From: Polaribacter vadi
GTDB lineage: Bacteria > Bacteroidota > Bacteroidia > Flavobacteriales > Flavobacteriaceae
Assembly (NCBI RefSeq): GCF_001761365.1
Contig: NZ_CP017477.1
Coordinates: 3,214,001 to 3,278,000, forward strand
Reading direction: 5' to 3'
Length of the DNA stretch: 64,000 nucleotides
This document shows positions 42,135 through 62,695 of this stretch, piece by piece. How positions within the stretch are numbered: the first letter of the stretch is position 1; every line of letters starts with the position of its first letter. Made by a program: the position numbers and the translations under genes. A model generated the notes under the pieces. The model saw only the letters and a list, made by a program, of their open reading frames with translations, had not been told where the DNA came from and did no database searches.

Positions 42135-42165
42135 TTTGCATATATCAAAATGTGTGTTATATTTG
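42135..42165 (+). promoter_or_regulatory. tRNA-Asp promoter
   Basis: TTTG (42135-42138), 19 bases, then TATATTTG (42158-42165): a full match to the Bacteroidota consensus. The tRNA begins 18 bases later. This is the best-matching vegetative promoter in the window without an overlapping operator. Confidence 0.85.
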
Positions 42166-42182
42166 CACTCGCTTTAAGCAAC

Positions 42183-42256
42183 GGTTTGGTAGTTCAGCTG
42201 GTTAGAATGCCTGCCTGTCACGCAGGAGGTCGCGGGTTCGAGTCCCGTCCAGACCG
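42183..42256 (+). tRNA. tRNA-Asp (GTC)
   Basis: A 74-base cloverleaf. The acceptor stem GGTTTGG pairs with CCAGACC (one G-U), the anticodon arm CCTGC-CTGTCAC-GCAGG presents GTC, and the T arm is CGGGTTCGAGTCCCG. The discriminator base is G and CCA is not encoded. Confidence 0.97.
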
Positions 42257-42270
42257 CAAAAAAGCAAATT

Positions 42271-44425: not shown

Positions 44426-44426
44426 C

Positions 44427-45599: not shown

Positions 45600-47070
45600 C
45601 TTTTTTACTTTTTAAGTTTAAATGTAATTCTGTTACTCTCTCTGGAACAGGTTTTTTACTTAGAAAACCTACAGTTATAAATATAATTAATGAAGCTAAA
45701 ATTGGTGCGCCCATTTCTAAGGAAAGCGGCTTTTCTGGAATCATTTTTAAAATAACGAAAACAAGTAAACCACCAATTATAGAACTTATGGCAGCAACAC
45801 TTCCGCTTTTTTTGAAAGCTGGTAGTAACCCTAAAATCATTGGTACAGAAATTGGACCTAATAAAGCTGCAAACCAAGTAACAATTAAACCGAAAATTCC
45901 GCCAAAACTACTTGCATTCAATCCGACAAGAATCGTTATAAAAGTGAAACAAAATGTACAGATTCTCGCCAAACGTAATTCTTTTTTTTGTGATAAATTT
46001 CTAAACTTCGGAAATAAATTCGGTAATATATCTCTACAAATAACAGACGAAATTGTGTTAGAATCTGATGAGGTCATCGAAAGTGTATTTGCAAACATAG
46101 AAGCCAAAACCAACCCTAGTAAACCAGCAGGTAAAAACTTTTTAGCCATTAAACCATAAGATAATGTTGGATCTGAAAGATTTTCTAAAAATAATGGCGC
46201 CACAAACATTGGGTATAATAAAATTAATGGCCAAATTAAATACAATATAGAAGATAAAATACCTGCTTTTTTAGCAACCTTAGCAGAAGATGATGAAATA
46301 AAACGCGTTGCTAAATTCCAAGTTCCACCACTATAACTAAAGAAATTTATAAGCAACATTGCAAATGCAAAAGCAATTGTGTAGGGATCATTAAAAAAGT
46401 CTGAATTTCCTTCAGGTAATTTATCCCAAACAGTTGTAATACTCATAAAACCATCCTCTGTATTTAAAAGAATAACAACAAACATGGTAATTCCTGCTAA
46501 TAATTGTACGATAAATTGCGCAAAATCATTCCAAACATCTGCCCATAAACCACCAATTGTAATGTAGATTAATGATACAATTCCAACTAGTAAAATTCCG
46601 AAAGTTATTGAAGTTCCACTAAAAACATTTAGTAAAATAGCGATAGCTGCCAATTTTCCACCAGTATCAAAAACTTTAATTAAAGAACCAACCCAAGCAA
46701 TTAATTGTTGTGTTTTTAAATCATAACGCATTAATAAATATTCTGTAGGCGATTGTATGTTGGCAAATTTTCTTAGTCTAGACCAACGTGGAGCAATATA
46801 AAAAGCAGCTAATAATGTTGCTATAGAAACTGTAAAAGCCCACCAAACATAAAGTGTAAAACCATGGGTATATGCAATACCTGCGTAAGCAACAAAAACG
46901 GCTCCACTATAACCAGAAACATGGTGAGAAACACCAGATAACCACCAAGGTAATTTTCCACCAGCTGTATAAAAATCTGCCGAATTTTTTACTTTGGAAT
47001 ATGCCCACAAACCTATAGATAATAAAAGTATAAAGTAAAATGCGAGAACTATCCAATCTAGTAATTCCAT
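45592..47070 (-). CDS. SSS-family sodium/solute symporter
   Basis: A 492-residue protein with about 13 membrane segments. YTAGGKLPWWLSGVSHHVSGYSG near the N-terminus and GGLWADVWNDFAQ are SSS signatures. By operon context with nagA and GH20 it probably imports GlcNAc or a short amino-sugar oligomer. Its promoter has a LacI operator covering the -33 box. Confidence 0.92.
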   Translation of the reverse strand: MELLDWIVLAFYFILLLSIGLWAYSKVKNSADFYTAGGKLPWWLSGVSHHVSGYSGAVFVAYAGIAYTHGFTLYVWWAFTVSIATLLAAFYIAPRWSRLRKFANIQSPTEYLLMRYDLKTQQLIAWVGSLIKVFDTGGKLAAIAILLNVFSGTSITFGILLVGIVSLIYITIGGLWADVWNDFAQFIVQLLAGITMFVVILLNTEDGFMSITTVWDKLPEGNSDFFNDPYTIAFAFAMLLINFFSYSGGTWNLATRFISSSSAKVAKKAGILSSILYLIWPLILLYPMFVAPLFLENLSDPTLSYGLMAKKFLPAGLLGLVLASMFANTLSMTSSDSNTISSVICRDILPNLFPKFRNLSQKKELRLARICTFCFTFITILVGLNASSFGGIFGLIVTWFAALLGPISVPMILGLLPAFKKSGSVAAISSIIGGLLVFVILKMIPEKPLSLEMGAPILASLIIFITVGFLSKKPVPERVTELHLNLKSKKDV

Positions 47071-47146: not shown

Positions 47147-47193
47147 CAAATCTAACTAATTTTTTATATTTATGCAAACGTTTGCATAAATAT
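47147..47193 (-). promoter_or_regulatory. Symporter-operon promoter with LacI-type operator
   Basis: A 28-base perfect palindrome (47166-47193) is centred on TGCAAACGTTTGCA. On the minus strand its TTTG half (47175-47178) is followed after 20 bases by TAGATTTG (47147-47154). The operator therefore includes the -33 box, so bound regulator would block sigma. Confidence 0.85.
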
Positions 47194-47311
47194 AAATCTA
47201 CTAAAATCTAGTTATTTTAATAAAAAAAATAATAAAACTTTTGAGAATGATATTTTTTTTGGAAAAATAACATTATAATTACGTTACCATTTAAAAGTAA
47301 ATATATTTTAC

Positions 47312-47325
47312 AGCAAACGTTTGTT
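47312..47325. promoter_or_regulatory. LacI-type operator before the regulator gene
   Basis: AGCAAACGTTTGTT, an imperfect copy of the operator, ends eight bases before the regulator ATG. This suggests autoregulation. Confidence 0.75.
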
Positions 47326-47333
47326 ATTTAATA

Positions 47334-48359
47334 ATGAAAAATAGAGTTACCTTAAAAGATTTAGCGAAAGAACTTAAATTATCTCCTTCTACAATTTCGA
47401 GAGCTATAGGAGGGCATCCTGCAATAAGTGATGCTACCAAAAAAAGAGTCAAGAAAAAAGCAGAAGAATTAGGTTTTACACCAAACTCAATTGCTGCAAG
47501 TTTTAGAAATAAAAAAACACGTTCTATTGGTATTATTGTTCCAAGAATTGATATTCATTTTCACTCTTTGGTCATTAGCGGAATTGAAGATTTTGCTTAT
47601 AAAAACGATTATAATGTTACTATTTTTCAATCTAAAGATTCTTTAAAAAGAGAAAAAGAGATTACAAAAATATTACAAACAAGAATGGTTGATGGAATTA
47701 TAGGCTGTTTAAGTATTGAAACAGAAAATTGTGATCATTTTAAAAAATTTAACAAGTTGGGTGTTCCCCTTGTTTTTTATGATCGAGTTCCCACAGATTT
47801 TGATGCAAACAAGATTGTTATTAATGATTTTGAATCTGCATATACTGCCACAAAACATCTAATAAAAAGTGGTTGTAAAAAAATTGGACACATTGCTGGA
47901 AGTCAAAAAACCAGTATTTTTAAAGCTCGTTTAGAAGGGTATAAGGCTGCTTTAAAAAAATATAAAATTCCTTTGGATGAATCCTTAATTATGTACACCA
48001 AAAATTTAAGTTATGATGAAGGTGTTTCTAGTGCAAAAAAATATTTAAATCTACCAGAATTACCTGATGGAATTTTTTGTGCCAACGATTATTCTGCAGT
48101 GAGTGTTATTCAGGTTTTTAGAAAAGCAAACATAAAAATTCCGGAACAAGTAGCTATTGTTGGTTTTAGTAATTACCCAATTTCTAGAATTATTGAACCG
48201 AATTTAACAACAATTAATGATCGTGCTTTTCAAATGGGGGAATCTTCTACAAAGCTACTTATCAGAAAAATTGAAGATGAAAATGATATTATAGATTCTG
48301 AAATTATTACCCTTAAAACTGAGCTAATTATTAGAGAATCTTCTAAACTAAATGCTTAA
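47334..48359 (+). CDS. LacI-family transcriptional regulator of the GlcNAc locus
   Basis: A 341-residue regulator. The helix-turn-helix VTLKDLAKELKLSPSTISRAIGG and hinge helix (PNSIAASFRNKKT) are followed by a periplasmic-binding-like effector domain (RSIGIIVPRIDIHFHSLV; DGIFCANDYSAV). It is divergent from the symporter operon. Five LacI-type TGCAAACGTTTGCA-like sites within 12 kb, one just before its own start, make it the likely regulator of the whole locus. The effector may be a GlcNAc derivative or uronate; this is inference. Confidence 0.94.
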   Translation: MKNRVTLKDLAKELKLSPSTISRAIGGHPAISDATKKRVKKKAEELGFTPNSIAASFRNKKTRSIGIIVPRIDIHFHSLVISGIEDFAYKNDYNVTIFQSKDSLKREKEITKILQTRMVDGIIGCLSIETENCDHFKKFNKLGVPLVFYDRVPTDFDANKIVINDFESAYTATKHLIKSGCKKIGHIAGSQKTSIFKARLEGYKAALKKYKIPLDESLIMYTKNLSYDEGVSSAKKYLNLPELPDGIFCANDYSAVSVIQVFRKANIKIPEQVAIVGFSNYPISRIIEPNLTTINDRAFQMGESSTKLLIRKIEDENDIIDSEIITLKTELIIRESSKLNA

Positions 48360-48363
48360 TATC

Positions 48364-49923
48364 TTATTTTATTTTTACCAAACGATTGTATAAAACTTTT
48401 ACAGGCTGAATTCTCAACTCATTTTGGTTTTTCAATTCAGAATCATATAAAAAACCTTTGTTTAATTTAGTAAATCTTTTATTTAGTTTTTTAGCATCTT
48501 TTAAGATTTCGTCTAATTTATCAACTAGGGTAGTAGTTTGAGACTGTTTAAAGTTTACAGAATTAAGTGCTTCCACTACTTCTTTAAAATCTAAATAATG
48601 CATTCTTAAATCTGCCATTAATTTAAAATGTTCAAATTCTTTTTTATTTTTAGTAGGATTTACAGCACATAAAGCATTTCTAATTTTACCAAAATCAGCT
48701 AACATTTGAGCAACATTTTTGCTTTTTTCTGGTTTTCCGTTTGTAATTAATTCAGGTTTAGCAAATATAAAATTAGATAAACTTTGAGCTTCATTTTCGT
48801 TTAAACCAAATTGACTTTTCCCATACTTTAAAACAAATTCTTTCGCTTCAATTGGTGTTTTACTTGCTAACGCATCTGCATAGCTGGCAATTAAAATTCG
48901 GAAACCAGAAAGTGGATATGTATTTCTAATTTGTTCCATATCAATTACATCATAGTTTACATCCCAAGTAAAACCATAAACGCCAGTTGTAGACCAAGAT
49001 GTCATAACAATTCCTTTGTAATTTGCTTCTCTTGCGTATGGAATAAACTCCTTTTGGTTCTTAAAATGTGTGGTCCAGTCTGTAACATACCAATTATCTG
49101 GATGACTTCTAATAGATGGTGAACCCCAAAAAGTAAATCCTTTTTTCTGAAGTTCTGGAACATCACCAAAATGATTAATTCTCCAACCATAATTCCAATC
49201 TACAAAAATGGTTTCTTTAGGTAATTCTGATGCTGCTTCTGGATGTTTTAAAATAATATCTGCCCACATTACAGGTTTTTTTCCTGCTGCAATGACCAAT
49301 TCAGTAATCATTTTCATGTGATCTACAAATAATTTTGATTTTCCTTCCTCTTCAACTTTTTTCTTGCATTTTTCATCATGCCCTAAAAGGTAAGTTTCAT
49401 CTCCACCAATATGAATATATTCTGATGGATGTGTTGAAGCTAAATCTCTAAATAATTCTGCAAATAATTCTTTATTGTCTGCAACTTCCATTGGGCACAA
49501 TTGAGAAATATCTTTTCTGTCTTCCTTTAAGTTACTATATCTTGGATTTCGTAAAATATATTCCACATGTCCTAATGTTTGTTGCAGTGGAATTACATCA
49601 ATATTTAAGGTTTTACAGTGTGCAATAAAATCTTTTATTTCTGCTCTTGTGTAAGAATATTCGTTAGAAATTGCGACATGATTTTCAAAAGGATACGTTC
49701 CTTCCCATTCTAAAACTAATGTATTCATGCCCATTTTAGAAAGTTCTGTAGCAAATTCTTTTAATGCATTTGGCGTCATTACTTGAATTCTTAAATCTAA
49801 ATGAAACCCTTTTACATCAAAATTATTTTCATTTTTTTGAGCAGAAGTTTCTATAGAACTTACTATGATTAAATTTATGATTAATAGGAAGTTTAGAATG
49901 GATTTAATGTTCATATTTATCAA
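48364..49923 (-). CDS. GH20-family glycoside hydrolase, short form
   Basis: A 519-residue exported protein with a signal peptide (about residues 1-28; a second ATG at 49914 also fits). It lacks the GH20b domain; the barrel starts at once (GFHLDLRIQVMTP). The acid pair is in YIHIGGDETYLLG (Asp175, Glu176). Family relatives are beta-hexosaminidases. The substrate may differ from the other GH20 because the barrel is diverged. The last gene of the susC operon; its stop lies four bases from the stop of the convergent lacI gene. Confidence 0.88.
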   Translation of the reverse strand: MINMNIKSILNFLLIINLIIVSSIETSAQKNENNFDVKGFHLDLRIQVMTPNALKEFATELSKMGMNTLVLEWEGTYPFENHVAISNEYSYTRAEIKDFIAHCKTLNIDVIPLQQTLGHVEYILRNPRYSNLKEDRKDISQLCPMEVADNKELFAELFRDLASTHPSEYIHIGGDETYLLGHDEKCKKKVEEEGKSKLFVDHMKMITELVIAAGKKPVMWADIILKHPEAASELPKETIFVDWNYGWRINHFGDVPELQKKGFTFWGSPSIRSHPDNWYVTDWTTHFKNQKEFIPYAREANYKGIVMTSWSTTGVYGFTWDVNYDVIDMEQIRNTYPLSGFRILIASYADALASKTPIEAKEFVLKYGKSQFGLNENEAQSLSNFIFAKPELITNGKPEKSKNVAQMLADFGKIRNALCAVNPTKNKKEFEHFKLMADLRMHYLDFKEVVEALNSVNFKQSQTTTLVDKLDEILKDAKKLNKRFTKLNKGFLYDSELKNQNELRIQPVKVLYNRLVKIK

Positions 49924-49977
49924 TTTAAATAGAGAGAATTTTTATTAATTTTGTTGAAAAACGTGCCTTAAATTATT

Positions 49978-50745
49978 TTAAAGTGCTTTCGTGATTTCTT
50001 TATTTTTTGAGAATGCTTTCTCATCAAAATAAAATTTACAATCAGGATGTGTTGTTAATATTGAAGCAGGACAAGCTGTAGAAATTACGCCTGAAAGTGT
50101 ATTTTTTACTGCTTCACTTTTTTTAGTACCTAAAACTACACAAAATAAGTGATCTGCATTCATTAAAGTTGGTATTGTTAATGTAATTGCTTTTTCAGGA
50201 ACATCATCAAATGTATCAAAACAAGCATCATTTACTTGTTGAGTTCTACATGCTTCATCTAATTCTACAACCTTAATAACTTTTGGGTCGTTAAAATCTG
50301 CAACTGGTGGATCGTTAAAGGCAATATGTCCGTTTTCGCCAATTCCTAAACAAACAATGTCTATTTTTTCTTCGGATAAAAGCTTTTCATACCTTTCTAA
50401 TTCTTCAGCGATACCATTGTGAACATTAATAGTGTTTTTCTGTTTTACTGTAACTTTCGAGAACAAATGATTTTCTAAATACGTAGAAAATAATTCTGGA
50501 GCATTTTCTTTTAATCCAATATATTCATCCATATGAAATGCTACTATTTTGCTCCAATCTATTAATTTAGAATTGGTTAAATAGTTTAGCATTGAATTTT
50601 GAGAAGGTGCTGCTGCAAAAATAATTCTTACCTCCTTTTTTGTTTGTAGTAATCTTACAATACAGTCTTCTACAGCTTTTCCTGCTGTGTTTCCTGTTTT
50701 TACTTTATCAGAAGAGACAGTAATGTTCTGATTAAATTTTATCAT
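49978..50745 (-). CDS. nagB: Glucosamine-6-phosphate deaminase
   Basis: A 255-residue enzyme that turns glucosamine-6-phosphate into fructose-6-phosphate and ammonia. FHMDEYIGLKENAPELFSTYL holds the catalytic Asp, and GIGENGHIAFNDPP the His-containing active site. It completes the path from NagA. Length is that of E. coli NagB. A second NagB domain occurs in the fusion gene at 60767. Confidence 0.93.
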   Translation of the reverse strand: MIKFNQNITVSSDKVKTGNTAGKAVEDCIVRLLQTKKEVRIIFAAAPSQNSMLNYLTNSKLIDWSKIVAFHMDEYIGLKENAPELFSTYLENHLFSKVTVKQKNTINVHNGIAEELERYEKLLSEEKIDIVCLGIGENGHIAFNDPPVADFNDPKVIKVVELDEACRTQQVNDACFDTFDDVPEKAITLTIPTLMNADHLFCVVLGTKKSEAVKNTLSGVISTACPASILTTHPDCKFYFDEKAFSKNKEITKAL

Positions 50746-50858
50746 TATTTTTCTTTTGTATTTGTTTTAGGGATTTTTCTTTTCTATAAGAGAAATTAAT
50801 CAACAGAAAAGTATTGATTGTTAGAAATTAGTTTTGGGGGAACTAGTTCAAACGTATT

Positions 50859-51608
50859 TTATAAAATTTCTATACGATCAATAATCATTTCTGCTGATTT
50901 ATTATCTGATGGTGCACTTCCTCTGAACAACCATAAGTTTATTTTAAAACGTTCTTCGTTTTCTGGTGGAATATTACTTCCTGTATATGTCCAAGTATTT
51001 ATTACATCTTTAGATTCTGGAGTTAATGTATGACCTTGATAACTACCAAACTCAATTTTATCTGCTTTCCAATCAAAAAAATGTGTGGATAGATCAGTAT
51101 TTAAGTTGAGATCAAATCTGGTTTTATTTCCAGTTAAGTGAGAAGGCTGAACTGCAAATTGAGAATTTTCATTATTTGATTTTGACCATTTAGAAAACTC
51201 AATATCAATTTCTTCTTCATCATTTTTATAAGTAAATATTCCTGCAACAACATTTTCATCTAATGCTTCAACATCACTTGCTACATAAACTACATATTTT
51301 TTGTATCCAAATGTTTTTCTTAAAGTTACACCAGAACAATACCAATTACCACCATCTTGTACTACTTTTAGATGTAATCTTCCTTGATCATCTACCCAAA
51401 CATTTTCTTCTGAATCTGAAAACAAATTGGGTCCAGGCCCTTGTTTTGTTTCATCTGAAGTTCTTACAACCCATTCATAACCAGAGAAGTCTATAATTCT
51501 AGTTTCTGGTTCTACAGGATTATCTTGTACTTCTGAATTTTTCGCACATGAATTTATTAAAATCAGTATAAAAAAAGAATACAATAGAATGGATAGAGAT
51601 TTTTTCAT
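50859..51608 (-). CDS. GH16-like lipoprotein
   Basis: A 249-residue lipoprotein (signal ending LINSCAKN). A concanavalin-type beta-sandwich is indicated by WYCSGVTLRKTFGYKKYVVYVAS and EEEIDIEFSKW, which resembles the GH16 catalytic ExDxxE signature with the spacing E-I-D-I-E. It may cleave an internal beta-linkage of the target glycan. Activity is not certain because this GH16-type motif also appears in binding proteins. It follows the FAS1 lipoprotein gene by 12 bases. Confidence 0.7.
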   Translation of the reverse strand: MKKSLSILLYSFFILILINSCAKNSEVQDNPVEPETRIIDFSGYEWVVRTSDETKQGPGPNLFSDSEENVWVDDQGRLHLKVVQDGGNWYCSGVTLRKTFGYKKYVVYVASDVEALDENVVAGIFTYKNDEEEIDIEFSKWSKSNNENSQFAVQPSHLTGNKTRFDLNLNTDLSTHFFDWKADKIEFGSYQGHTLTPESKDVINTWTYTGSNIPPENEERFKINLWLFRGSAPSDNKSAEMIIDRIEIL

Positions 51609-51620
51609 TAAGTTTTATTT

Positions 51621-53063
51621 TTATTGTACTGTTATGTTAATATCAAAAGCAGGTAAGCTTGCACCAGCTTTATCTTTAGTTGTTACAGTAATTTTATCGT
51701 CTGTACCATTACCATTGTTAATATATACAACATTCATAACGTCTACATCTTCTTGCGTAAATGATTCACCAGCCTGTAATACACTTGCTCCTCTAATAAA
51801 CCAACCATTTTGTGGTGCTTGTTGAATGGTAAAACTAATGTCTGCAGCTGTTGCTCCAGAAACTTCTAAAACATTACTATTTAAAGCGTACGCTTCTCCA
51901 CTATTAACTGTAAAACCAGTATTTCTTTCAATAACTAATGTTGTATTTCCTGTAGCAAAACGTGCAATTAACATAGATGGCAAATTACCTCCTGTATTTT
52001 CTTTTGTCCAGAATTCATCTGTTTCATCTTTTAGATTTTCTTGATCTAACATAAATGCAACTTTTCCATTATGAGTTAAATCTTTATAGTAATCTAGAAT
52101 ATCAAATTGAAAAGCAGAGATTTTTGATGTAGTTATTGAAGCAATTGGATCTGTGGTTGGGAAAGGTGCATTATCAAACGTAATTCCAGATTCTGTCCAA
52201 GTAGTATCTTGCACTGCTAAAATATCAAAATCAATACCTTTTGCAGCCGTAAATTTTACGTTTAGCTCTAAATTCATTTCAACAATTACGCCTTCTTTTG
52301 TAAAATCTTTTAGATTAAACATTAAAAAACCTTTTCTTAAATAATCTTTATTTGATGCACTTTTTACTTTAATACGATCTTCTGATCCATAATTTCTACC
52401 AGAACTACCACCACCATTTACATATGAATCTGCAATTGGATAAATTGTATCTCTAACAATATCTGGATCTGGAGAAGCTGGTGTTAAACGTGCAGAAAAG
52501 AAAATTATATCATCTAAAATATGAACAACACCATTTGTAGGTTTTATGTTAGATGTTATGATTGTCCATTGCTTATTAGTTCCTTCGTTTATTAATCCTG
52601 TATAACCACTTGTTCTCGATAAGAAAACAGTTTGTCCATTTTCACTAGTGTAAGGTAAAGGATTGTTTCTTTCAGAAATATTAGGATCATCAAAAGAAAC
52701 GACTGCATTTACAATATGATATTTTAATGCGTTTCTTAAAATTGGAACTGGAACTTCTGATAAATCTTGATACGAATTATTTGCTAAATAATTTTTAAAA
52801 GCTTCATTTGTTGGTGCAATAAATGTCTTTTTTTCTGCAGCTTCATAAAAACTTTGTATACCAGTTAGTGTTATTGCTTCTTCTAGCAATGCTAAAGAAT
52901 CGTTTTGTTGAATAAACTCCCAAGCGTTTATAGTTAATGGAGTATTTGAATTGGACTTTTTATAAGAAAAATCTTCTTGAACTTCACAACTAAAAAAAGT
53001 ACTTAATACAACTGAAAAGAAGATTCCAATTGTGAGATACAGTAATGTTTTATTATTTTTCAT
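51621..53063 (-). CDS. FAS1-DNRLRE-cadherin-like surface lipoprotein
   Basis: A 480-residue lipoprotein (signal ending TFFSCEVQ). Residues about 40-195 are a fasciclin FAS1 domain (FIAPTNEAF, LRNALKYHIV, GVVHILDDIIF). Residues about 205-370 are a DNRLRE/CBM96-like beta domain (YPIADSYVNGGG, YGSEDRIKVK, WTESGITFDNAP). The C-terminal 110 residues resemble a cadherin/CSPG-type repeat. No catalytic motif is seen. Between susD and a GH16 gene, the best inference is a surface glycan-binding protein. Confidence 0.75.
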   Translation of the reverse strand: MKNNKTLLYLTIGIFFSVVLSTFFSCEVQEDFSYKKSNSNTPLTINAWEFIQQNDSLALLEEAITLTGIQSFYEAAEKKTFIAPTNEAFKNYLANNSYQDLSEVPVPILRNALKYHIVNAVVSFDDPNISERNNPLPYTSENGQTVFLSRTSGYTGLINEGTNKQWTIITSNIKPTNGVVHILDDIIFFSARLTPASPDPDIVRDTIYPIADSYVNGGGSSGRNYGSEDRIKVKSASNKDYLRKGFLMFNLKDFTKEGVIVEMNLELNVKFTAAKGIDFDILAVQDTTWTESGITFDNAPFPTTDPIASITTSKISAFQFDILDYYKDLTHNGKVAFMLDQENLKDETDEFWTKENTGGNLPSMLIARFATGNTTLVIERNTGFTVNSGEAYALNSNVLEVSGATAADISFTIQQAPQNGWFIRGASVLQAGESFTQEDVDVMNVVYINNGNGTDDKITVTTKDKAGASLPAFDINITVQ

Positions 53064-53108
53064 TATTTCTGAATTTTAATTATTTAATGCATTTTTAGGA
53101 ATAGATAC

Positions 53109-54485
53109 TTACCTGTAAAATTGATTTTGTATCAAATTAGGGTTTCTATTAATAGCGTCTTCATGAATTGGCCAAACCAAATTTTCTGGATCGCTCAAAC
53201 CATTTATAGGGTTCATAGTATTTATAGCTTTACCTGTTCTTACCAAATCGAACCATCTATGTCCTTCAAAAGATAATTCTATTGAACGTTCATGCAGTAT
53301 TGCAGATTCTAAATCTCCATATAAAGTAGTTGCTGATGCTAATGTTAAAGCTGGAAGACCTGCTCTATCTCTTATCAAGTTTAATAATCTTAAAGCTTCA
53401 GTTGTGTCTCCTAATTTGTTATGAGCTTCTGCTTTTAGCAACATAATATCTGCTAAACGTATCAAAACAATATTGTTTCCTGAAGGATCTGCACTTTCGT
53501 CATTAAAACCTTGTCCGAAAAATTTCCATATTTTTCTTGGATCTGCATCTGTTGTATCATAAATAAGATCTTTTCTTAAATCTCCAGTTTCAAAAGAATT
53601 TTTGAATTTTTCGCTTGGAAAATAATCACTATCAGCTCCAATAGCATATAAAACTCTTAATGCATTTGTTTGTACTTCGTTATAACCTACTTCGAAAATA
53701 CTTTCGTTAGAATAACCTGATGTAAAAATTCTAGACCAATCATTTATAGAAACTAAAGAGTATAAACTGTTATCTAATACTTTTTCTGAAGATTCTATGG
53801 CTGCATCATACTGATTTCTCCACATATATACTTGCGTTAATAAAGCATGTGCTGCACCTTGTGTAAAAAGAATTCTAGAACTATCACTAGAAAAAGTTAC
53901 TCTACAGTTTTCTGATGCAAAAATTAAATCTTCAACAATTTGATCAAGTACAACCTCTTTATCTGTTTTAGAAATAAAGAATTCTTGGTCAACACTTTCA
54001 TAAGGTTCTGTAATTAAAGGAACATCTCCCCAAACTCTAACTGCATAAAAATAAGATAATGCGCGAAGTGCTCTAGCTTGTGCAATTAACTGTAAGCTAA
54101 ATTCACTTTCTGTTTCAAAAACAGTTGGTACGTATTTAATAGCATAATTAGCACGACTAACTGTTTCGTAAATGCTATTCCATCTTGCAGAAGTTATACT
54201 TTGGTTTAAAGTGTTTTGTTGTAATGCTAAAGGATCTCCAGCATGGTTTGTATTTACTGCATCTGCTCTACCTTCTCCCCAATAAGAAAAGTTAACTCGA
54301 AATGTAGATTGTGCTGCATCATAAATTCCATAAACACCCGATTGTGCATCGCTTGAGTTTTTGTAAAATCCTTGCCCTGAAAAGCTACTTACTGGATCTT
54401 TCTCTAAAATATCTGAACAAGAGAAGAATATCAGCATTAATAATCCACTTAATAAAATTGGTTTTATATTTTTTATATTTTTCAT
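53109..54485 (-). CDS. SusD/RagB-family glycan-binding lipoprotein
   Basis: A 458-residue lipoprotein from the ATG at 54483-54485 (signal ending IFFSCSDIL); an upstream in-frame ATG would overlap susC. SARWNSIYETVSRANYAI and the C-terminal LSFEGHRWFDLVRTGKAI are SusD signatures. It binds glycan at the cell surface and acts as the lid of the SusC transporter encoded just upstream. Confidence 0.95.
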   Translation of the reverse strand: MKNIKNIKPILLSGLLMLIFFSCSDILEKDPVSSFSGQGFYKNSSDAQSGVYGIYDAAQSTFRVNFSYWGEGRADAVNTNHAGDPLALQQNTLNQSITSARWNSIYETVSRANYAIKYVPTVFETESEFSLQLIAQARALRALSYFYAVRVWGDVPLITEPYESVDQEFFISKTDKEVVLDQIVEDLIFASENCRVTFSSDSSRILFTQGAAHALLTQVYMWRNQYDAAIESSEKVLDNSLYSLVSINDWSRIFTSGYSNESIFEVGYNEVQTNALRVLYAIGADSDYFPSEKFKNSFETGDLRKDLIYDTTDADPRKIWKFFGQGFNDESADPSGNNIVLIRLADIMLLKAEAHNKLGDTTEALRLLNLIRDRAGLPALTLASATTLYGDLESAILHERSIELSFEGHRWFDLVRTGKAINTMNPINGLSDPENLVWPIHEDAINRNPNLIQNQFYR

Positions 54486-54495
54486 AATTCTTTTT

Positions 54496-57400
54496 TTAAA
54501 ATCCAATGTTTAATCCTAAAATAAATGTGCGACTTTGAGGGTAAGAACCTTCATCAACACCTTCTCTTAATCCGCTGTAAGAATTTACATCTGGATCAAA
54601 ACCTGTGTAACGTGTCCAGGTTATTACGTTTACTGCAGATGCAAATAATTCAACTTTTCTTAAGCCTAAATTTTCAACAACATTATTTGGTAAGTTATAT
54701 CTAACGTTAATGTTTTTTAATTTAATATAAGAACCATCTTCTACCCAACGACTTTGAATTCTACTGTCTGATTGAAAAGGGTCATCTCTAACTGGTCTTG
54801 GAAAATCTGTAATATCTCCTTGATTTCTCCATCTAGTTAAAGCGTCTGTAGAAAGGTTGTTATATCTTACAACAGAGTTTCTTTGATGATTAATTTCACT
54901 ATAAATATCGTTTCCAACAGAATACTGTAAGAAGAAACTTAAACTAATTCCTTTATAAGAAAAGTTGTTAGTAATACCTCCAAAGAAATCTGGAGTTGCA
55001 TCTCCAATTATTTGTCTATCGTTGTTGTCTATAATATTATTTCCATCAACATCATCCCAAATAGGGTCTCCACCTTTAAAAATTGCTCCTAAAGCTCCGT
55101 TTGTAACTTGGTTTTCATTGTCTGAATCACTTGCATAAACACCGTTAAATTTCCATCCGTAAAAAGTACCAATTGGGCTTCCTTCTTTTAAAATATGATA
55201 ATTACCATTTTGGATAAAACCGTTTGTTAATACGTTATCTGGTAAATCTGTAACTTGATTTCTATTTGAACTAATATTAAAATTAGTACTCCATTTAAAA
55301 TCGCCTACGAAGTTTTTAGAATTTATAGAGAGTTCGACACCTCTGTTTTCTATGCTACCAATATTTTGGGTTACTGTAGAAAAACCTGTTGTTCTTGGAA
55401 CAGGAACGTTAAATAATAAATCGTCTGTGATTTTTAAATACACATCTGTAGTTACTTGTAATCTATTATTTAAAAAAGATAAATCTAAACCTGCATTATA
55501 TTGTGTACTTGTTTCCCAAGTTAAACCAGAATTTGACATTACTGATGGAGCAGCTCCAGAAAAATCTAAATAATTTGTTCCTACTGCAAATTCTCCTTGT
55601 GCAGTGTAATTTCCTATAGATTCATTTCCTGTTTGTCCTGCTGTTAAACGAATTTTCCCATCATTTAAAAAGTCTAAGTTTTCAAGAAAATCTTCATCAG
55701 AAAAACGCCATCCTAAAGCAACAGAAGGAAAATAACCAAACCTGTTATCTTTACCAAATCTAGAGGAACCATCTGCTCTTATATTTGCTTCAAATAAATA
55801 TTTCTCTTTATAATCATAAGCTACTCTTGCAAAATAAGAAAGTATTGAATGCTCTGTAGTAATATTTACATCTTGATTAGAGATGGTTCCTGCACCATTT
55901 AAGGTTGTAATATTATCACTAGAAAAGAATTCACCATCCAAACCAGTTCTTTCATATTGCCAATTTTGGAAACTAATACCTAACAAAGAAGAAAAGTTAT
56001 GATCTTCTGAAATTGCTTTATTAAAAGTTAAAAAAGTTTCATTTCCCCAAGTTAAATTGCTAATAGCTCTTACTTCTCCACTGTTAAAACCAGGTCTATA
56101 ATCTAAAGAAGCTGGAAGAAATTTATCTTCCTTCATTGATAAAAAGTCTAAATTAATATTACTTCTTAACTTAAGGCCTTCTATAATATTATATTCTCCA
56201 TATTGGTTTGCTATAATACGATTTGTCTTGTTATTGTTTGTTGCCAATTCAGCTAATCCAACAGGATTTCTTCTACCAAATTGATATCCGTTATAAGATC
56301 CATCAGGTAAAAAATTTGCAAAAATTGGAGGACGAACTAATAATTCTCTAACAATACTTAAATTGTTAGTTCCACCTGCATTTATTCTTTTATTAAAACC
56401 GTTTGTGTAAGAAATACTCTGTCCAAAAGTTAATTTTTCTGAAGCTTTAAAATCTACATTTAAACGAGATGTAACTCTTTTATAATTTGAGTTTAAAATA
56501 ATACCATCTTGACTTAAGAAAGAAGAGCTCCATGCGTATTTTACATTTTCAGATCCTCCTCTTACAGATAAATCTACTTTATATTGTGGTGCAACTCTTA
56601 ATAATTCGCTTTGCCAATCTACATCACCATTATTTCTAGGATTTAAAGAATCCAAAACAATTCCATTAGGCACTGTAGGATTGTCCATATTTGCATAAGA
56701 ATCTAAGATTAATTGTCTGTACTGTGTTGCATTTAAAACACTTAGTTTTCTAGTAATTTCACTTACACCTGTTAAAATGTTAACATCAATTTGTGCTTTA
56801 CCAGATTTACCTCTTTTGGTAGTAATTAATACAACACCATTTGCAGCTCTTGAACCATAAATTGCAGTTGAAGCTGCATCTTTTAATATTTCTATGGATT
56901 GAATATCACTTGGGTTAATATCTGATAAAGGGTTTAAACCAAAATTTTCTGTTCCGTTTAAAGAAGACAAAGAATTTGATTCGATAGGCACACCATCTAC
57001 CACATAAAGTGGAGTGTTTCCTGAATTTAACGATGAATTTCCCCTAACTTTAATAGACATTCCTCCTCCAGGAGCACCAGAGTTTGATACTACTTGTACA
57101 CCAGCAGCTCTACCTTGTATTGCAGAAATAGGGTCTTGTGCATTAGATTCTGCAATTGCCTCACTACTTACAGAGGCTATAGATCCTGTTAAATTTCTTT
57201 TCTTTTTCTTTCCATAAGCAACAATTACTACTTCGCTTAATTCATTAGAAGCTGCTGATAAAGTAACATTTAAAATTTTTTCATTTTCTATTTTTACTTC
57301 TAATTTATCGTAACCCAAATAGGAAAACAATAAAATATCGCCTTTAGAAATTTGACTAATACTATACATTCCATCTAAATCGGAAGTAACACCTTTAGCA

Positions 57401-57597
57401 GTTCCTTTTACACTTATACTAACACCTATTAAAGATTCTCCTGTAATATTATCTGTAACTTTTCCAGTTACATTAAAATTTTGGGATTGTCCATTAGTGG
57501 CAATTGTAAAAAAAACGAAAATAAAAGGAATAAATAACTTGTTTAAAAACTTCCATCTTAGGAAGTTAGAAAGCAGATTTTGAGTATTTTTTTTCAT
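54496..57597 (-). CDS. SusC/RagA TonB-dependent glycan transporter
   Basis: A 1033-residue outer-membrane protein. After the signal peptide (about 1-37) a carboxypeptidase-D-like domain (VTGKVTDNITGESLIGVSIS) is followed by the plug (ISAIQGRAAGVQVVSNSGAPG, IEILKDAASTAIYGSRAANGVV) and a beta-barrel ending in an aromatic residue. First gene of an operon with susD, the FAS1 lipoprotein, GH16, nagB and GH20. The promoter overlaps a LacI-type operator. Confidence 0.96.
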   Translation of the reverse strand: MKKNTQNLLSNFLRWKFLNKLFIPFIFVFFTIATNGQSQNFNVTGKVTDNITGESLIGVSISVKGTAKGVTSDLDGMYSISQISKGDILLFSYLGYDKLEVKIENEKILNVTLSAASNELSEVVIVAYGKKKKRNLTGSIASVSSEAIAESNAQDPISAIQGRAAGVQVVSNSGAPGGGMSIKVRGNSSLNSGNTPLYVVDGVPIESNSLSSLNGTENFGLNPLSDINPSDIQSIEILKDAASTAIYGSRAANGVVLITTKRGKSGKAQIDVNILTGVSEITRKLSVLNATQYRQLILDSYANMDNPTVPNGIVLDSLNPRNNGDVDWQSELLRVAPQYKVDLSVRGGSENVKYAWSSSFLSQDGIILNSNYKRVTSRLNVDFKASEKLTFGQSISYTNGFNKRINAGGTNNLSIVRELLVRPPIFANFLPDGSYNGYQFGRRNPVGLAELATNNNKTNRIIANQYGEYNIIEGLKLRSNINLDFLSMKEDKFLPASLDYRPGFNSGEVRAISNLTWGNETFLTFNKAISEDHNFSSLLGISFQNWQYERTGLDGEFFSSDNITTLNGAGTISNQDVNITTEHSILSYFARVAYDYKEKYLFEANIRADGSSRFGKDNRFGYFPSVALGWRFSDEDFLENLDFLNDGKIRLTAGQTGNESIGNYTAQGEFAVGTNYLDFSGAAPSVMSNSGLTWETSTQYNAGLDLSFLNNRLQVTTDVYLKITDDLLFNVPVPRTTGFSTVTQNIGSIENRGVELSINSKNFVGDFKWSTNFNISSNRNQVTDLPDNVLTNGFIQNGNYHILKEGSPIGTFYGWKFNGVYASDSDNENQVTNGALGAIFKGGDPIWDDVDGNNIIDNNDRQIIGDATPDFFGGITNNFSYKGISLSFFLQYSVGNDIYSEINHQRNSVVRYNNLSTDALTRWRNQGDITDFPRPVRDDPFQSDSRIQSRWVEDGSYIKLKNINVRYNLPNNVVENLGLRKVELFASAVNVITWTRYTGFDPDVNSYSGLREGVDEGSYPQSRTFILGLNIGF

Positions 57598-57629
57598 AAA
57601 TTAAAAGTTTGTTTATTCTATAATTTTGT

Positions 57630-57668
57630 CAAATATAACATTTTATTAATTCTATGCAAACGTTTGCA
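57630..57668 (-). promoter_or_regulatory. susC promoter with LacI-type operator on the -33 box
   Basis: TGCAAACGTTTGCA (57655-57668) provides TTTG on the minus strand (57657-57660). After exactly 19 bases comes TATATTTG (57630-57637). The leader before susC would be about 30 bases. The geometry equals that of the symporter promoter. Confidence 0.88.
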
Positions 57669-57752
57669 CTTAAAAAATTTAAATTTTATGGAAAATATTT
57701 TATTATTTACTATAAACTCTTTAAAAAAAAGTGCTAAGTGTTATTTTATATA

Positions 57753-57766
57753 TGCAAACGTTTGTT
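57753..57766. promoter_or_regulatory. Second LacI-type operator upstream of susC
   Basis: TGCAAACGTTTGTT, 98 bases from the first susC operator and 70 bases after the uronate isomerase stop. No -7 box lies at the right distance, so it may be an auxiliary site for looping. Confidence 0.75.
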
Positions 57767-57835
57767 TTCTTTTTACTTAAAAATATAATTTTTGTCTTAA
57801 ATAATTATTTAAATGAAGTAATTTTAAAGAAAATG

Positions 57836-59239
57836 CTAAAAGTTAAAATAATTTTTTGCATTAAAATAGGAAACATCATTTACAATATCACCTAAAAAAG
57901 AAATATCGTTTGGTAATTCTCCATTATAAACATCTTTGCCAATAAGATTGCAAAGTATTCTTCTAAAATAATCGTGTCTGGCATAAGAAAAAAGACTTCT
58001 ACTGTCTGATAACATTCCAACAAAACAAGACAATAAACCGACATTAGACAAGGTGTTAAGTTGTTTTTCAATTCCGTCTTTTTGATCCATAAACCACCAA
58101 GCCGCACCAAATTGAACTTTTCCTTTTATAGAGCCATCATTAAAATTACCAACCATAGATGCTATTAACTCATTATCTCTTGGGTTTAAATTATATATAA
58201 TTGTCTTTGGAAGTTTACCTTCTTTATCTAATCGATTTAAAAAAACTGATAATGATAATCCTTGGTTAAAATCTCCAATACTATCTGAACCAGCATCATT
58301 GCCAAGTAATTTAAAGAGTCTAGAATTTGTATTTCTCATTGCTCCAAGATGTAGTTGCATTACCCAATTTTTTGAGGCATACATTTTGCCTAACTCGAAT
58401 AATAAAGTCGATTTGTAAATTTCTATTTCTTCTTTTGAAATTTTTTCTCCAGAAATTCGCTTCTTAAAAGTTTTATCTGAAATACTGAAGCTTAATTTAT
58501 TGACATAACAATGTTCTAAACCATGATCTGAAATTCTACATCCATTTTCATGAAAATAATCGATACAATTCTTTAAGGTGTTTAATAAATCTGAGAAATT
58601 TAATATAGAAGTGTTTTTGGCTTCACTTAATTGTGTAATATAATTTACGAAAGAGGTTTTTTCTATATGAATTGAATTATCAGGTCTAAATGTGGGAAGT
58701 AGTTTAAAGCTACAATCATCATTTTTAATTTTTTGATGATTTTTAAGATCAGAAGAAGGGTCGTCTGTTGTTACTGCAACTTCAACATTAGCGTTTTTGA
58801 GAATATTTCTGGCAGCTAAGTTGTTAGTGCTGAGTTTTGCAGCTGTTTCATTAAATATTATTTCTGCATTGTTGGAGTTTAGCAATCTTTCTTCGGATAA
58901 AAAAATCTTCAATTCCATCTGTGTCCAATGATATAATGGATTTCTAATTGTAAAAGGAACTGTTTTTGCCCATTTTTCAAATTTTTCAAAATCACTAGCT
59001 TCTCCTGTAATATATTTTTCAGAAATCCCAAAAGTTCTCATGGCTCTCCATTTAGAGCTGTCACTTTCAAGCCAAGCTTGAGTTAAGTTTTCATATTTAC
59101 GATTATTTGCAATATCAGCATCAGAAACATGACTATGGTAATCTATAATGGGTTGTTTTTTAGCGTAATCATGATAAAGTTGTTGTGAAATACTATTTTC
59201 TAATAGGAAATCATCATTTAAAAAAGGCTTTATTTTCAT
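57836..59239 (-). CDS. uxaC: Uronate (glucuronate) isomerase
   Basis: A 467-residue enzyme that converts glucuronate to fructuronate, or galacturonate to tagaturonate. PIIDYHSHVSDADIANN has the metal-binding His-x-His. WRAMRTFGISEKYI, VAVTTDDPSSDL and VMQLHLGAMRNTNSRLF are family features. Length equals E. coli UxaC (470). No other uronate gene is in the window, yet its upstream region shares the LacI operator. The target glycan may contain uronic acid. Confidence 0.94.
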   Translation of the reverse strand: MKIKPFLNDDFLLENSISQQLYHDYAKKQPIIDYHSHVSDADIANNRKYENLTQAWLESDSSKWRAMRTFGISEKYITGEASDFEKFEKWAKTVPFTIRNPLYHWTQMELKIFLSEERLLNSNNAEIIFNETAAKLSTNNLAARNILKNANVEVAVTTDDPSSDLKNHQKIKNDDCSFKLLPTFRPDNSIHIEKTSFVNYITQLSEAKNTSILNFSDLLNTLKNCIDYFHENGCRISDHGLEHCYVNKLSFSISDKTFKKRISGEKISKEEIEIYKSTLLFELGKMYASKNWVMQLHLGAMRNTNSRLFKLLGNDAGSDSIGDFNQGLSLSVFLNRLDKEGKLPKTIIYNLNPRDNELIASMVGNFNDGSIKGKVQFGAAWWFMDQKDGIEKQLNTLSNVGLLSCFVGMLSDSRSLFSYARHDYFRRILCNLIGKDVYNGELPNDISFLGDIVNDVSYFNAKNYFNF

Positions 59240-59319
59240 ATCGGAAACTATCTAAAATGTTTTGTAATTGTGTTGTAAAGTTCAAACGTATAAAAAATAA
59301 TAAGAAAAAACACTATAAA

Positions 59320-59351
59320 TTTGGTATTATGCAAACGTTTGCATAATTTTG
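59320..59351 (+). promoter_or_regulatory. Permease promoter with LacI-type operator between the -33 and -7 boxes
   Basis: TTTG (59320-59323), 20 bases, then TAATTTTG (59344-59351). A 22-base perfect palindrome centred on TGCAAACGTTTGCA (59326-59347) fills the spacer. On the other strand TACGTTTG (59283-59290) is a candidate -7 box for uxaC, so the site may serve both genes. Confidence 0.85.
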
Positions 59352-59428: not shown

Positions 59429-60733
59429 ATGCAACAAAAAAACAATACCACAGCAATTATCATTATTGCAAGTTTATTTTTCATATTTGGTTTTGTAACC
59501 TGGATTAATGGCGCATTAATTCCTTTTATGAAAACAATCAATGAACTTACAGATGCCCAATCTTATTTAGTAGCATCTGCAAGTTATATTTCTTTTGTGG
59601 TGATGGCTTTGCCAGCTTCTTATATTTTAAATAAGATTGGTTATAAAAAAGGCATGTCTTTAGGGTTGGTAATTATGGGGATTGGAGCTTTGGTATTTAT
59701 ACCAGCAGCAGAAGCAAGAACGTATTGGGTTTTTCTAGCAGGTATTTTTATTCAAGGTTTAGGAATGACGATTTTGCAAACAGCCTCAAACCCTTATATC
59801 ACAATTTTGGGTCCTATAGAAAGTGGTGCAAAGCGAATTGCCATTATGGGAATTGCAAATAAAACTGCAGGTGCATTAGGTTCTCTAATTTTTGGAGCGT
59901 TGTTATTATCTGGAATTGATGACACCAAAGAAAAATTAGCGGGTGTAACTTTAGAGGAAAAAAATGTACTGTTAGATACGATGGCTGATAGCGTTTTTAT
60001 GCCTTATATAATAATGGCAATAGTGCTATTTATATTAGGTGTTTTAATTAGAAAAGCCCCTTTACCAAATGTAGAAGCAGCAGAAATCGAAGAGATTGTA
60101 GAAGGAAAAACAGCAAAAACAAGTATTTTTCAATTCCCAAATTTATGGTTGGGTGTATTGGCACTTTTTGTTTATGTAGGAGCCGAAGTTATTGCTGGAG
60201 ATACAATTATTTCTTACGGAATTTCACTTGGTTTTACAGGAGAAGAAGCCAAATATTTTACAACTTATACATTATTAGCAATGGTTGCCACGTATGCTTT
60301 GGGGGTTTTCTTAATTCCTAAATATGTAAAACAAAAAACAGCTTTAATTGCAAGTGCTATTTTAGGAATTGTGTTTAGTTTTTGCATCTTAAATACTACA
60401 GGTTTTATATCTGTTTTATTTGTGGCAGGCTTAGGAATTGCAAATGCCTTGGTTTGGCCAGCAATTTGGCCCTTAACATTAGAAGGCTTAGGGAAATTCA
60501 CAAAAACAGGTTCAGCCTTATTAATCATGGCAATTTCTGGAGGTGCCATCATTCCCCCTTTATATGGTAGAATTGTAGATGCTAACAAACAAGAATTAAT
60601 GATCAATGGTTTGCAGGAAGCAGCAGCAATGGCATCAGCCTCTACTAGTAGTTATTGGATTTTAATTCCTTGTTATGCAATTGTGTTAATCTTTGCGATT
60701 TGGGGACACAAAATAAAAAATTGGACAAAATAA
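59429..60733 (+). CDS. FHS-family sugar permease (FucP/NagP-like)
   Basis: A 434-residue major-facilitator transporter with about 12 membrane segments. FFIFGFVTWINGALIPFMK is the FucP-like opening, and QTASNPYITILGP is conserved in FHS proteins. In other marine bacteria such permeases (NagP) carry GlcNAc, but fucose, glucose or galactose relatives exist. The context with NagB favours an amino sugar. Confidence 0.88.
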   Translation: MQQKNNTTAIIIIASLFFIFGFVTWINGALIPFMKTINELTDAQSYLVASASYISFVVMALPASYILNKIGYKKGMSLGLVIMGIGALVFIPAAEARTYWVFLAGIFIQGLGMTILQTASNPYITILGPIESGAKRIAIMGIANKTAGALGSLIFGALLLSGIDDTKEKLAGVTLEEKNVLLDTMADSVFMPYIIMAIVLFILGVLIRKAPLPNVEAAEIEEIVEGKTAKTSIFQFPNLWLGVLALFVYVGAEVIAGDTIISYGISLGFTGEEAKYFTTYTLLAMVATYALGVFLIPKYVKQKTALIASAILGIVFSFCILNTTGFISVLFVAGLGIANALVWPAIWPLTLEGLGKFTKTGSALLIMAISGGAIIPPLYGRIVDANKQELMINGLQEAAAMASASTSSYWILIPCYAIVLIFAIWGHKIKNWTK

Positions 60734-60766: not shown

Positions 60767-62695
60767 ATGTTAAAAAGTACAATAGACAAAGCAACAGGTT
60801 TCGAAAAAAGATTCGAGAATATTGGTACCATCGTATATGAAGATTCTACATCTGCCTCAAAAGCAATCGCACAAGAAATTGCAGATTTAATACGAGTAAA
60901 ACAAGCCCAAAAACAAACTTGTGTGTTGGGTTTAGCCACTGGCTCTTCCCCAAAAGGATTGTATGCAGAATTGGTAAGATTGCACAAAGAAGAAGGTTTA
61001 AGTTTTAGCAATGTTGTCTCTTTTAATTTAGATGAATATTACCCAATGGAACCAGATTCTGTAAACAGTTATGTTCGTTTTATGAAAGAACAATTGTTTA
61101 ATCATATCGATATTATACCAGAAAATTGTTTTGTACCAGAAGGCAGATTAACCAAAGAAGAAATTAGAATTTATTGCGAACAATATGAATCGAAAATAGA
61201 AGCTTTTGGAGGAATTGATTTACAGATTTTAGGAATTGGAGGAAATGGTCATATTGGTTTTAATGAATCTGGCTCTTTACAAAACTCAAAAACAAGATTA
61301 GTAGCCTTAGATCATATTACAAGAGTAGCAGCAAGTGCCGATTTTTCTGGCTTGGAAAAAACGCCAAGAACAGCAATTACATTAGGAGTAAAAAAAATAA
61401 TGGAAGCGAAAAGAGTCATTTTAATGGCTTGGGGAGAACAAAAAGCAAACATTATAAAAGCCTCAGTAGAAGATGAAGTAACCAATAAAGTGCCAGCCTC
61501 TTATTTACAAGAACATAGAAATGCCACCTTTGTTTTAGACAAAGCAGCCTCTAGTAAATTAACAAGAATTAAAACCCCTTGGTTGGTAGAAAATGTAACT
61601 TGGACAGATAAATTAATCAGAAAAGCAGTTTTAAATTTAGCTTTAAAATTAAAGAAGCCAATTTTAATGTTAACAGATGCAGATTACATCGAAAATGGGA
61701 TGAGCGATTTGTTAACAGAAAATGGCTCAGCGTATGAAATAAATATAAAAATATTTAACAAATTACAAAGAACAATTACAGGTTGGCCAGGAGGAAAACC
61801 AGGAGCAGACGATAGTAGCAGACCAGAAAGAGCAGAGCCTGTTAAAAAACGCGTGTTGATCTTTAGTCCACATCCAGATGATGATATCATTAGTATGGGA
61901 GGTACTTTTAAAAGATTACATGAACAAGGACATGAGGTGCATGTTGGGTATCAAACTTCAGGAAACATTGCAGTTGCAGATGATGAAGCCTTACGTTTTG
62001 CAAGTTTTGTAAGAGATTATAATGAGAAATTTGGAATCGATAATTCAGAGGCAAATGTTATTTATAAAAAAGCAGCTGATTTTTTAAAGAACAAAAAATC
62101 TAGTGAAATAGATACTCCAGAAGTACGCTATATCAAAGGCTTGATTAGAAAAGGAGAAGCAAGAGCTACCTGTCATTTTATCGGGATTCCTGATGCTCAA
62201 ATTCATTTTATGGAGTTGCCTTTTTATGAAACAGGAGCTATTAAGAAAAATCCTGTTGGAGTTGCAGATGTGCAAATAACCGCTGATTTAATTGAAAAAA
62301 TAAAGCCTCACCAAATATATGCAGCAGGAGATTTAGCAGATCCACATGGCACACATAAAGTTTGTTTAGATGCTGTTTTTTCATCCGTAAAAGAATTAAA
62401 AGATAAAAAATTCATGAAAGATTGCTGGGTTTGGTTGTACAGAGGAGCTTGGCAAGAATGGGGTGTAGATGAAATAGAAATGGCAGTTCCAATGGGACCA
62501 GGTCAAGTATTAGAAAAACGAAAAGGTATTTTTAAACATCAATCACAAAAAGATGGGGTGGTTTTTCAAGGAGCAGATAGTAGAGAATTTTGGCAACGAG
62601 CAGAAGATAGAAATAAAGAAACTGCAGATTTGTATGATGCTTTAGGATTGGCTCATTATGCAGCTATGGAAGCTTTTGTAAGATGGCATTTTTAA
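60767..62695 (+). CDS. Glucosamine-6-phosphate deaminase-like/PIG-L deacetylase fusion
   Basis: A 642-residue protein. Residues about 20-280 are a NagB domain (GLATGSSPKGLYAEL, VVSFNLDEYYPM, LGIGGNGHIGFNESGS). Residues about 365-625 are a PIG-L/LmbE domain (LIFSPHPDDDIISMGGTFKR with the zinc-binding His-Pro-Asp-Asp, and DPHGTHKVCLDAV). It could both deacetylate and deaminate an amino-sugar derivative. The fusion is known in Bacteroidota. It follows the permease by 33 bases in the same operon. Confidence 0.9.
   Translation: MLKSTIDKATGFEKRFENIGTIVYEDSTSASKAIAQEIADLIRVKQAQKQTCVLGLATGSSPKGLYAELVRLHKEEGLSFSNVVSFNLDEYYPMEPDSVNSYVRFMKEQLFNHIDIIPENCFVPEGRLTKEEIRIYCEQYESKIEAFGGIDLQILGIGGNGHIGFNESGSLQNSKTRLVALDHITRVAASADFSGLEKTPRTAITLGVKKIMEAKRVILMAWGEQKANIIKASVEDEVTNKVPASYLQEHRNATFVLDKAASSKLTRIKTPWLVENVTWTDKLIRKAVLNLALKLKKPILMLTDADYIENGMSDLLTENGSAYEINIKIFNKLQRTITGWPGGKPGADDSSRPERAEPVKKRVLIFSPHPDDDIISMGGTFKRLHEQGHEVHVGYQTSGNIAVADDEALRFASFVRDYNEKFGIDNSEANVIYKKAADFLKNKKSSEIDTPEVRYIKGLIRKGEARATCHFIGIPDAQIHFMELPFYETGAIKKNPVGVADVQITADLIEKIKPHQIYAAGDLADPHGTHKVCLDAVFSSVKELKDKKFMKDCWVWLYRGAWQEWGVDEIEMAVPMGPGQVLEKRKGIFKHQSQKDGVVFQGADSREFWQRAEDRNKETADLYDALGLAHYAAMEAFVRWHF

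Follow-up and report, generated by a model that had tools for sequence, protein, structure and literature searches.

Can the operator of a local repressor also be part of the promoters that it would silence? The question is raised by a susCD polysaccharide utilization locus (PUL) of Polaribacter vadi, which lies in a stretch of 64 kb (NCBI RefSeq assembly GCF_001761365.1, contig NZ_CP017477.1, positions 3,214,001 to 3,278,000; hereafter the window, numbered from its first base; GC 30.3%) of a genome consisting of one contig of 3,809,314 bases. The locus carries its own regulator gene, lacI (47334..48359, + strand), whose product of 341 aa belongs to the LacI/GalR family: it combines an N-terminal LacI helix-turn-helix (HTH) domain (41.6 bits) with a periplasmic-binding-protein-like sensor domain (Peripla_BP_3, 98.2 bits), both above the Pfam cut-offs. 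From sites, spacing, conservation and gene content, all read directly from sequence, we argue that this protein is probably (at a probability of about 0.68) a self-repressing regulator of an N-acetylhexosamine PUL, and that an operator half site doubles as the -33 element of the promoter.

Putative operators and promoter boxes in the window

Five candidate sites had been listed in a preliminary description of this DNA, and all are present: three are exact copies of the 14-mer TGCAAACGTTTGCA (beginning at 47173, 57655 and 59330) and two share its 10-bp core. As even palindromes with a central CG near a regulator gene they have the form of LacI-type operators, for which binding is predicted. The symporter-side operator lies in the gap between lacI and the symporter gene, where its 14-mer (47173-47186) sits inside a perfect palindrome of 34 bp (47163..47196) rather than the 28 bp (47166-47193) first reported; the sites of orthologs are found at the same place. 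The lacI-proximal operator, AGCAAACGTTTGTT (47312..47325; three mismatches, perfect palindrome of 10 bp), lies 8 bp ahead of the start codon of lacI. Upstream of susC are an exact 14-mer forming a 14-bp perfect palindrome (57655..57668) and, 98 bp from it, a second, upstream site, TGCAAACGTTTGTT (57753..57766; two mismatches, perfect palindrome of 10 bp). The permease operator, between uxaC and the permease gene, is a 22-bp palindrome (59326..59347).

The genome-wide motif search proposed with the preliminary description returned three exact copies of TGCAAACGTTTGCA in the 3,809,314 bases, all in this locus within a span of 12.2 kb, where about 0.01 copies are expected in the genome (a single-base estimate at an assumed GC of 31%). 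Window matches with up to three mismatches number seven versus 5.67 expected, so window statistics carry no weight by themselves and reliance is placed on the genome and the orthologs. With up to two mismatches there are 27 matches genome-wide versus 18 for the reversed pattern; most of these matches are thus background, and no wider regulon is claimed.

Promoters of sigma-ABfr, in the cited parts of the papers concerned, have TTTG at -33 and TAnnTTTG at -7 (PMC7366714), the former also given as TTG (PMC4306948), and in Flavobacterium psychrophilum the -7 box occupies -12 to -5 (PMC7366714, PMC4306948; flavobacterial start-site map, PMC9723704). An exact TAnnTTTG box with TTTG at about -33 is found at three promoters of the window, and at 23 of the 26 ortholog loci described below. 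At the symporter promoter (- strand) the TTTG (47175..47178) lies within the operator, 20 bases from the exact -7 box TAGATTTG (47147..47154); at the susC promoter (- strand) it again lies within the operator (57657..57660), 19 bases from the exact box TATATTTG (57630..57637). In both cases it is the palindrome half facing the promoter that reads TTTG, and both distances are those first described. The permease promoter (+ strand) is built otherwise: its TTTG (59320..59323) stands outside the operator, N20 from the exact box TAATTTTG (59344..59351). Here the palindrome had been said to fill the spacer; its exact 14-mer (59330-59343) makes up the final 14 of the 20 bases, abutting the -7 box.

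The pattern TTTG-N17..22-TAnnTTTG occurs seven times in the 64 kb, both strands included, and three of the seven are the symporter, susC and permease promoters. Neither the second susC site (57753) nor the lacI site (47312) has an exact box 17-22 bases away on either strand. A uxaC promoter at the operator shared with the permease gene was also considered and is unsupported: on the uxaC strand the operator TTTG and the first exact TAnnTTTG are 41 bases apart. Another occurrence of the pattern precedes the tRNA-Asp gene (42135-42257, + strand), where TTTG-N19-TATATTTG shows the same promoter spacing without an operator.

Spacing in orthologs and across the family

A scan with the LacI protein gave 80 loci, of which 26 (L054-L079; 51-89% identity) were used and the other 54 (up to 49%) left out. 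The nearest named ortholog locus is that of an uncultured Polaribacter (L054; LacI identity 89%). All 26 loci carry an operator-like site upstream of lacI (L066 by the 10-bp core only), and in 23 of them the promoter divergent from lacI has an exact TAnnTTTG at 19 (three loci) or 20 bases (20 loci) from the operator TTTG. When exact boxes are counted over the whole set of sites examined, on both strands, seven fall at 19, 21 at 20 and at most one at any other spacing. Across the 24 exact-box promoters (the window included) the AAACGTTTG of the operator is invariant, while spacer columns are only 38-62% conserved, save for one invariant T directly after the operator; the nn positions of the box vary, TA and TTTG being invariant through the selection rule. 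With diverged spacers and varying nn, the 23 promoters are not near-identical copies. Four loci (L055, L059, L074 and L075) have one altered half site, and the half that they retain is the promoter-facing TTTG.

The arrangement extends beyond a single promoter. A symporter divergent from lacI, together with a separate susC promoter of 19-base spacing, is found in the window, L054, L056 and L058; L057 and L153 likewise have a 19-base susC promoter, the two spacings of L057 being 19 and 19, and all five of these relatives have sites upstream of susC. In most of the Gramella-like and Bacteroidales loci the gene divergent from lacI is susC. Of the 26 loci, 21 have a second site no more than 45 bp from the start of lacI (at 6-31 bp in the 20 of these with a listed distance).

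Other sites of the window are less widely shared. Two susC sites had been described, and both exist, but the second recurs in two of the five relatives in which susC has a separate upstream gap that was read (L056 and L153, not L054, L057 or L058). Similarly, the site between uxaC and the permease gene is present in the window, whereas the loci retrieved from relatives show no such control of the two genes: no tblastn match to uxaC is listed in the 26 ortholog loci or in 15 further stretches, all of limited length, so that the genes may lie elsewhere, and in the same set the permease and nagB2 are listed in L055 and L152 only.

At up to one mismatch the motif has between one and six matches in each of the 15 relatives searched, and in 12 of the 15 at least one match is at this locus, as judged from coordinates; in G315, G317 and G318 no match at that threshold could be placed at the locus. 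The remaining matches in relatives lie apart from the locus genes or beside other LacI genes.

A further prediction concerns operators of different sequence. If the half site is shared by repressor and sigma factor, supplying a -33 element that is otherwise weak in Bacteroidota, then joint selection should hold operators with a TTTG half site at a spacing of 19-20 from the -7 box and let those with ATTG or TTTA float; as a general rule this is offered tentatively, with the odds somewhat against it. Scanning 249 genomes of the family for CAAACGTTTG followed by the box within 30 bases yielded 73 matches, spread over 59 genomes; 15 have spacing 20 and six have 19, and the other 29 spacings average 1.8. 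Spacing 22 also has six, near-identical strings that resemble one conserved coding stretch and were taken as background; several of the matches at 19 or 20 without CA after the TTTG sit in longer frames free of stops and could likewise be background. In the subset CAAACGTTTGCA, 13 of 15 are at 19-20, the others being the permease site (at 2) and one at 9.

The comparison is with a sister operator, ACAATCGATTGT, whose half site is ATTG and which is common to a paralogous lacI and its neighbouring gene in the P. vadi genome (L181, 2729340-2729740), the latter a gene that we take to be kduI-like. Within 30 bases of a box it has 42 matches in 27 of the 249 genomes, with one match for the reversed control. 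The 43 operator-box pairs from these 42 places spread over 3-22 bases, and 12 of the 43 are at 19-20, as against 13 of 15 for CAAACGTTTGCA (Fisher p 1.3e-4, to be read with the shared ancestry, overlap and post hoc choice of the subset). An operator with TTTA, TGTAAACGTTTACA, has six matches at 9-19 bases (manual count), two of the six at 19. The TTTG operator is thus fixed at one place and the others are loose, which fits the prediction of a joint operator and -33 role.

A probable shared operator and -33 element

The switch that we infer, with its binding, repression, -33 function, operon limits and inducer, would work as follows. Without inducer, a dimer of the local LacI-family repressor (47334-48359) would bind TGCAAACGTTTGCA. 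In the symporter and susC promoters the half site that faces the promoter would be the TTTG that the primary sigma factor contacts at -33, which would set repressor and RNA polymerase in competition for one set of bases. In the permease promoter the repressor would cover the spacer between -33 and -7, and at lacI an operator just before the start codon would limit the repressor's own synthesis. Release would presumably be brought about by an amino sugar (or its phosphate) or by an oligosaccharide product of the encoded pathway. In its central claim, a LacI regulon with half sites at the -33 position, the preliminary description is thus supported by the 23 ortholog loci and by the looser placement of the sister operator.

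Several observations weigh against this account. The 23 ortholog promoters share ancestry and are not 23 independent events; of the three loci without an exact box, two (L076 and L077) carry TAGATTTA at spacing 20, and in L055 there is no box at that place. The 73 matches of the family scan are only moderately above the reversed control (47, manual count); the CAAACGTTTGCA subset was picked after the list was seen, three of its 15 members come from the window itself, and at least three of its genomes (G182, G086 and G138) seem to be those of the L063, L079 and L078 loci, so that the CAAACGTTTGCA and ortholog sets overlap. The commonest spacing of the sister operator is also 19 (8 of 43), and none of its 43 promoters has TTTG at 18-21; there the TTTG is evidently dispensable. 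The LacI protein is taken as the binder of the sites from adjacency. Nor does a general -33 element stand out: among 67 promoter-like boxes, TTTG occurs once at 19 and once at 20, with no peak, and 73 boxes from the genome, the window excluded, give two TTTG versus 1.4 expected and seven TTG versus 3.0 expected (p 0.035, a weak excess). A weak -33 TTTG peak in a sample of 87 boxes was set aside because the sample included the window's own operator promoters. The role of the -33 element here is deduced from the spacing lock, not from a strong general element.

What else might hold the operator in place? It could merely overlap the promoter and block it sterically, the TTTG having no role for sigma and the spacing of 19-20 being inherited from one ancestral promoter. 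This we consider unlikely, if by some way the most serious alternative. Orthologous promoters do share descent, and the 43 sister promoters manage without TTTG; yet the spacing recurs at two promoters per genome (20 at the symporter and 19 at susC in the window, L054, L056 and L058; 19 and 19 in L057), it is the same at susC promoters in another gene order although the spacers have diverged, and plain steric repression would tolerate drift of the kind seen with the sister operator. The comparison favours a shared operator and -33 element over plain steric blocking.

Two other explanations are very improbable. Some LacI-family proteins, for example CcpA and Cra, activate some promoters, and activators too typically keep a constant distance to the -7 box, so a class II-like activation from a site centred near -38 might be imagined; but the dimer would then cover the -33 bases, and a permease site within the spacer and a lacI site beside the start codon are positions of repression. 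Hardly more credible is a main binder other than the local protein. The genome does encode eight LacI HTH proteins, and a near-identical palindrome stands beside a LacI paralog of 36% identity from another species (L155, 1976), so that LacI paralogs may have related motifs in common; set against this are the confinement of exact sites to this locus, the operator-like sites that precede the orthologous genes at all 26 loci, and the different perfect palindrome, TACAATCGATTGTA, beside the sister lacI of the same genome.

Returning to the shared element, the locus would be a concrete and conserved example of a marine Bacteroidota PUL under probable control by a repressor, and it points to an uncomplicated design for regulated promoters of the phylum. 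It would also offer a natural test of -33 function, an element hard to detect in flavobacteria, with the same four bases seen with and without repressor. Were the rule to hold widely, the position of an operator could be predicted from its sequence, and regulons of this kind would reveal where the -33 contact matters.

The locus and comparable systems

On the evidence of its genes, a susC-susD pair with glycoside hydrolases, the locus is a susCD PUL, predicted to serve an N-acetylhexosamine-containing glycan. The order is GH20, nagA-like and sodium:solute symporter genes (all - strand), lacI (+), then GH20-like, nagB-like, lipoprotein-like, fasciclin/CBM96, susD, susC and uxaC genes (all -), followed by a NagP/FucP-like permease and a nagB-PIG-L fusion (both +). 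The GH20 beta-N-acetylhexosaminidase (42815..44467; PF00728, 348.9 bits) is followed by a nagA-like N-acetylglucosamine-6-phosphate deacetylase (44427..45599; TIGR00221, 212.5 bits, slightly below the cut-off of 225.65) and the symporter (45592..47070; PF00474, 112.3 bits). Beyond lacI come a divergent GH20-like protein (48364..49923; PF00728, 60 bits; PDB 8qk1, E 2.8e-21), a nagB-like deaminase/isomerase (49978..50745; PF01182, 73.3 bits; under the NCBIfam cut-offs), a lipoprotein-like protein of 249 aa (50859..51608), a fasciclin/CBM96/cadherin-like protein (51621..53063; Pfam domain matches), susD (53109..54506; PF07980, 112.1 bits), susC (54496..57597; TIGR04056, 893.5 bits) and the glucuronate isomerase uxaC (57836..59239), whose control by the shared operator is uncertain. 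The MFS permease (59429..60733) scores 388.6 bits with NF046060 (below the cut-off of 625) and 272.7 bits with TIGR01272 (above cut-off); the nagB-PIG-L fusion (60767..62695; NF002557, 1064.1 bits) starts 33 bp after it and is probably in one operon with it.

Three features of the encoded proteins deserve mention. The 249-aa lipoprotein-like protein adjoins susCD and is kept in relatives despite having no Pfam match; its EIDIEF motif is invariant in 12 aligned sequences and resembles the GH16 active-site motif. After the nagB fusion gene a reading frame (62816-64000, +) runs off the edge of the window; it is, we assume, acetyl-CoA-synthetase-like, and might consume acetate from deacetylation. 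The hinge of the LacI protein has phenylalanine in the window and in 14 close orthologs; the other 12 of the 26 orthologs, which are more distant, have leucine, the usual hinge residue of LacI proteins, with the operator core unchanged; the phenylalanine is also found in two other LacI proteins (L020 and L032).

LacI control near such loci is not in itself new. In the parts of the literature consulted, the LacI regulators KdgR, UxaR, UxuR and UxmR of Bacteroides are predicted for uronate pathways (PMC3878776), and the legend of a figure on a xylan PUL of Gramella flava mentions lacI (PMC5306329). The contrast with Bacteroides drawn in the preliminary description is fair for polysaccharide loci. 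Compared by description, the Bacteroides regulators are like the present one in phylum, family and uronate link (uxaC adjoins the locus), and differ in being listed for monosaccharide pathways, where here there is a susCD locus with N-acetylhexosaminidases (PMC3878776). Among the titles and abstract openings listed in literature searches, none describes a LacI operator that serves as a -33 box in Bacteroidota, which is not proof of absence from print.

Autoregulated LacI-family regulons whose even palindromes are centred on CG have been well described (PMC4052901). Like the local regulons of that survey, the present one has an even palindrome with central CG, apparent autoregulation, sugar-gene neighbours and tandem sites; the survey treats Bacteroides as a single taxonomic group, the term Flavobacter being absent from its main text, and gives distances to start codons, where we give distances to the -33 and -7 boxes. 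With sigma-ABfr promoters in general the locus shares the same boxes in the same order, the difference being that one box here would belong to a repressor palindrome. Among solved structures the closest to the LacI protein are CcpA chains, with PurR lower in the ranking; CcpA (Bacillus) and PurR (Escherichia coli), its closest solved relatives by sequence, have other regulons and another promoter type. PurR has a similar operator core, AAACGTTT. Set beside these systems, the switch itself looks fairly conventional, and what looks new is its PUL target and the shared position of operator and -33 element.

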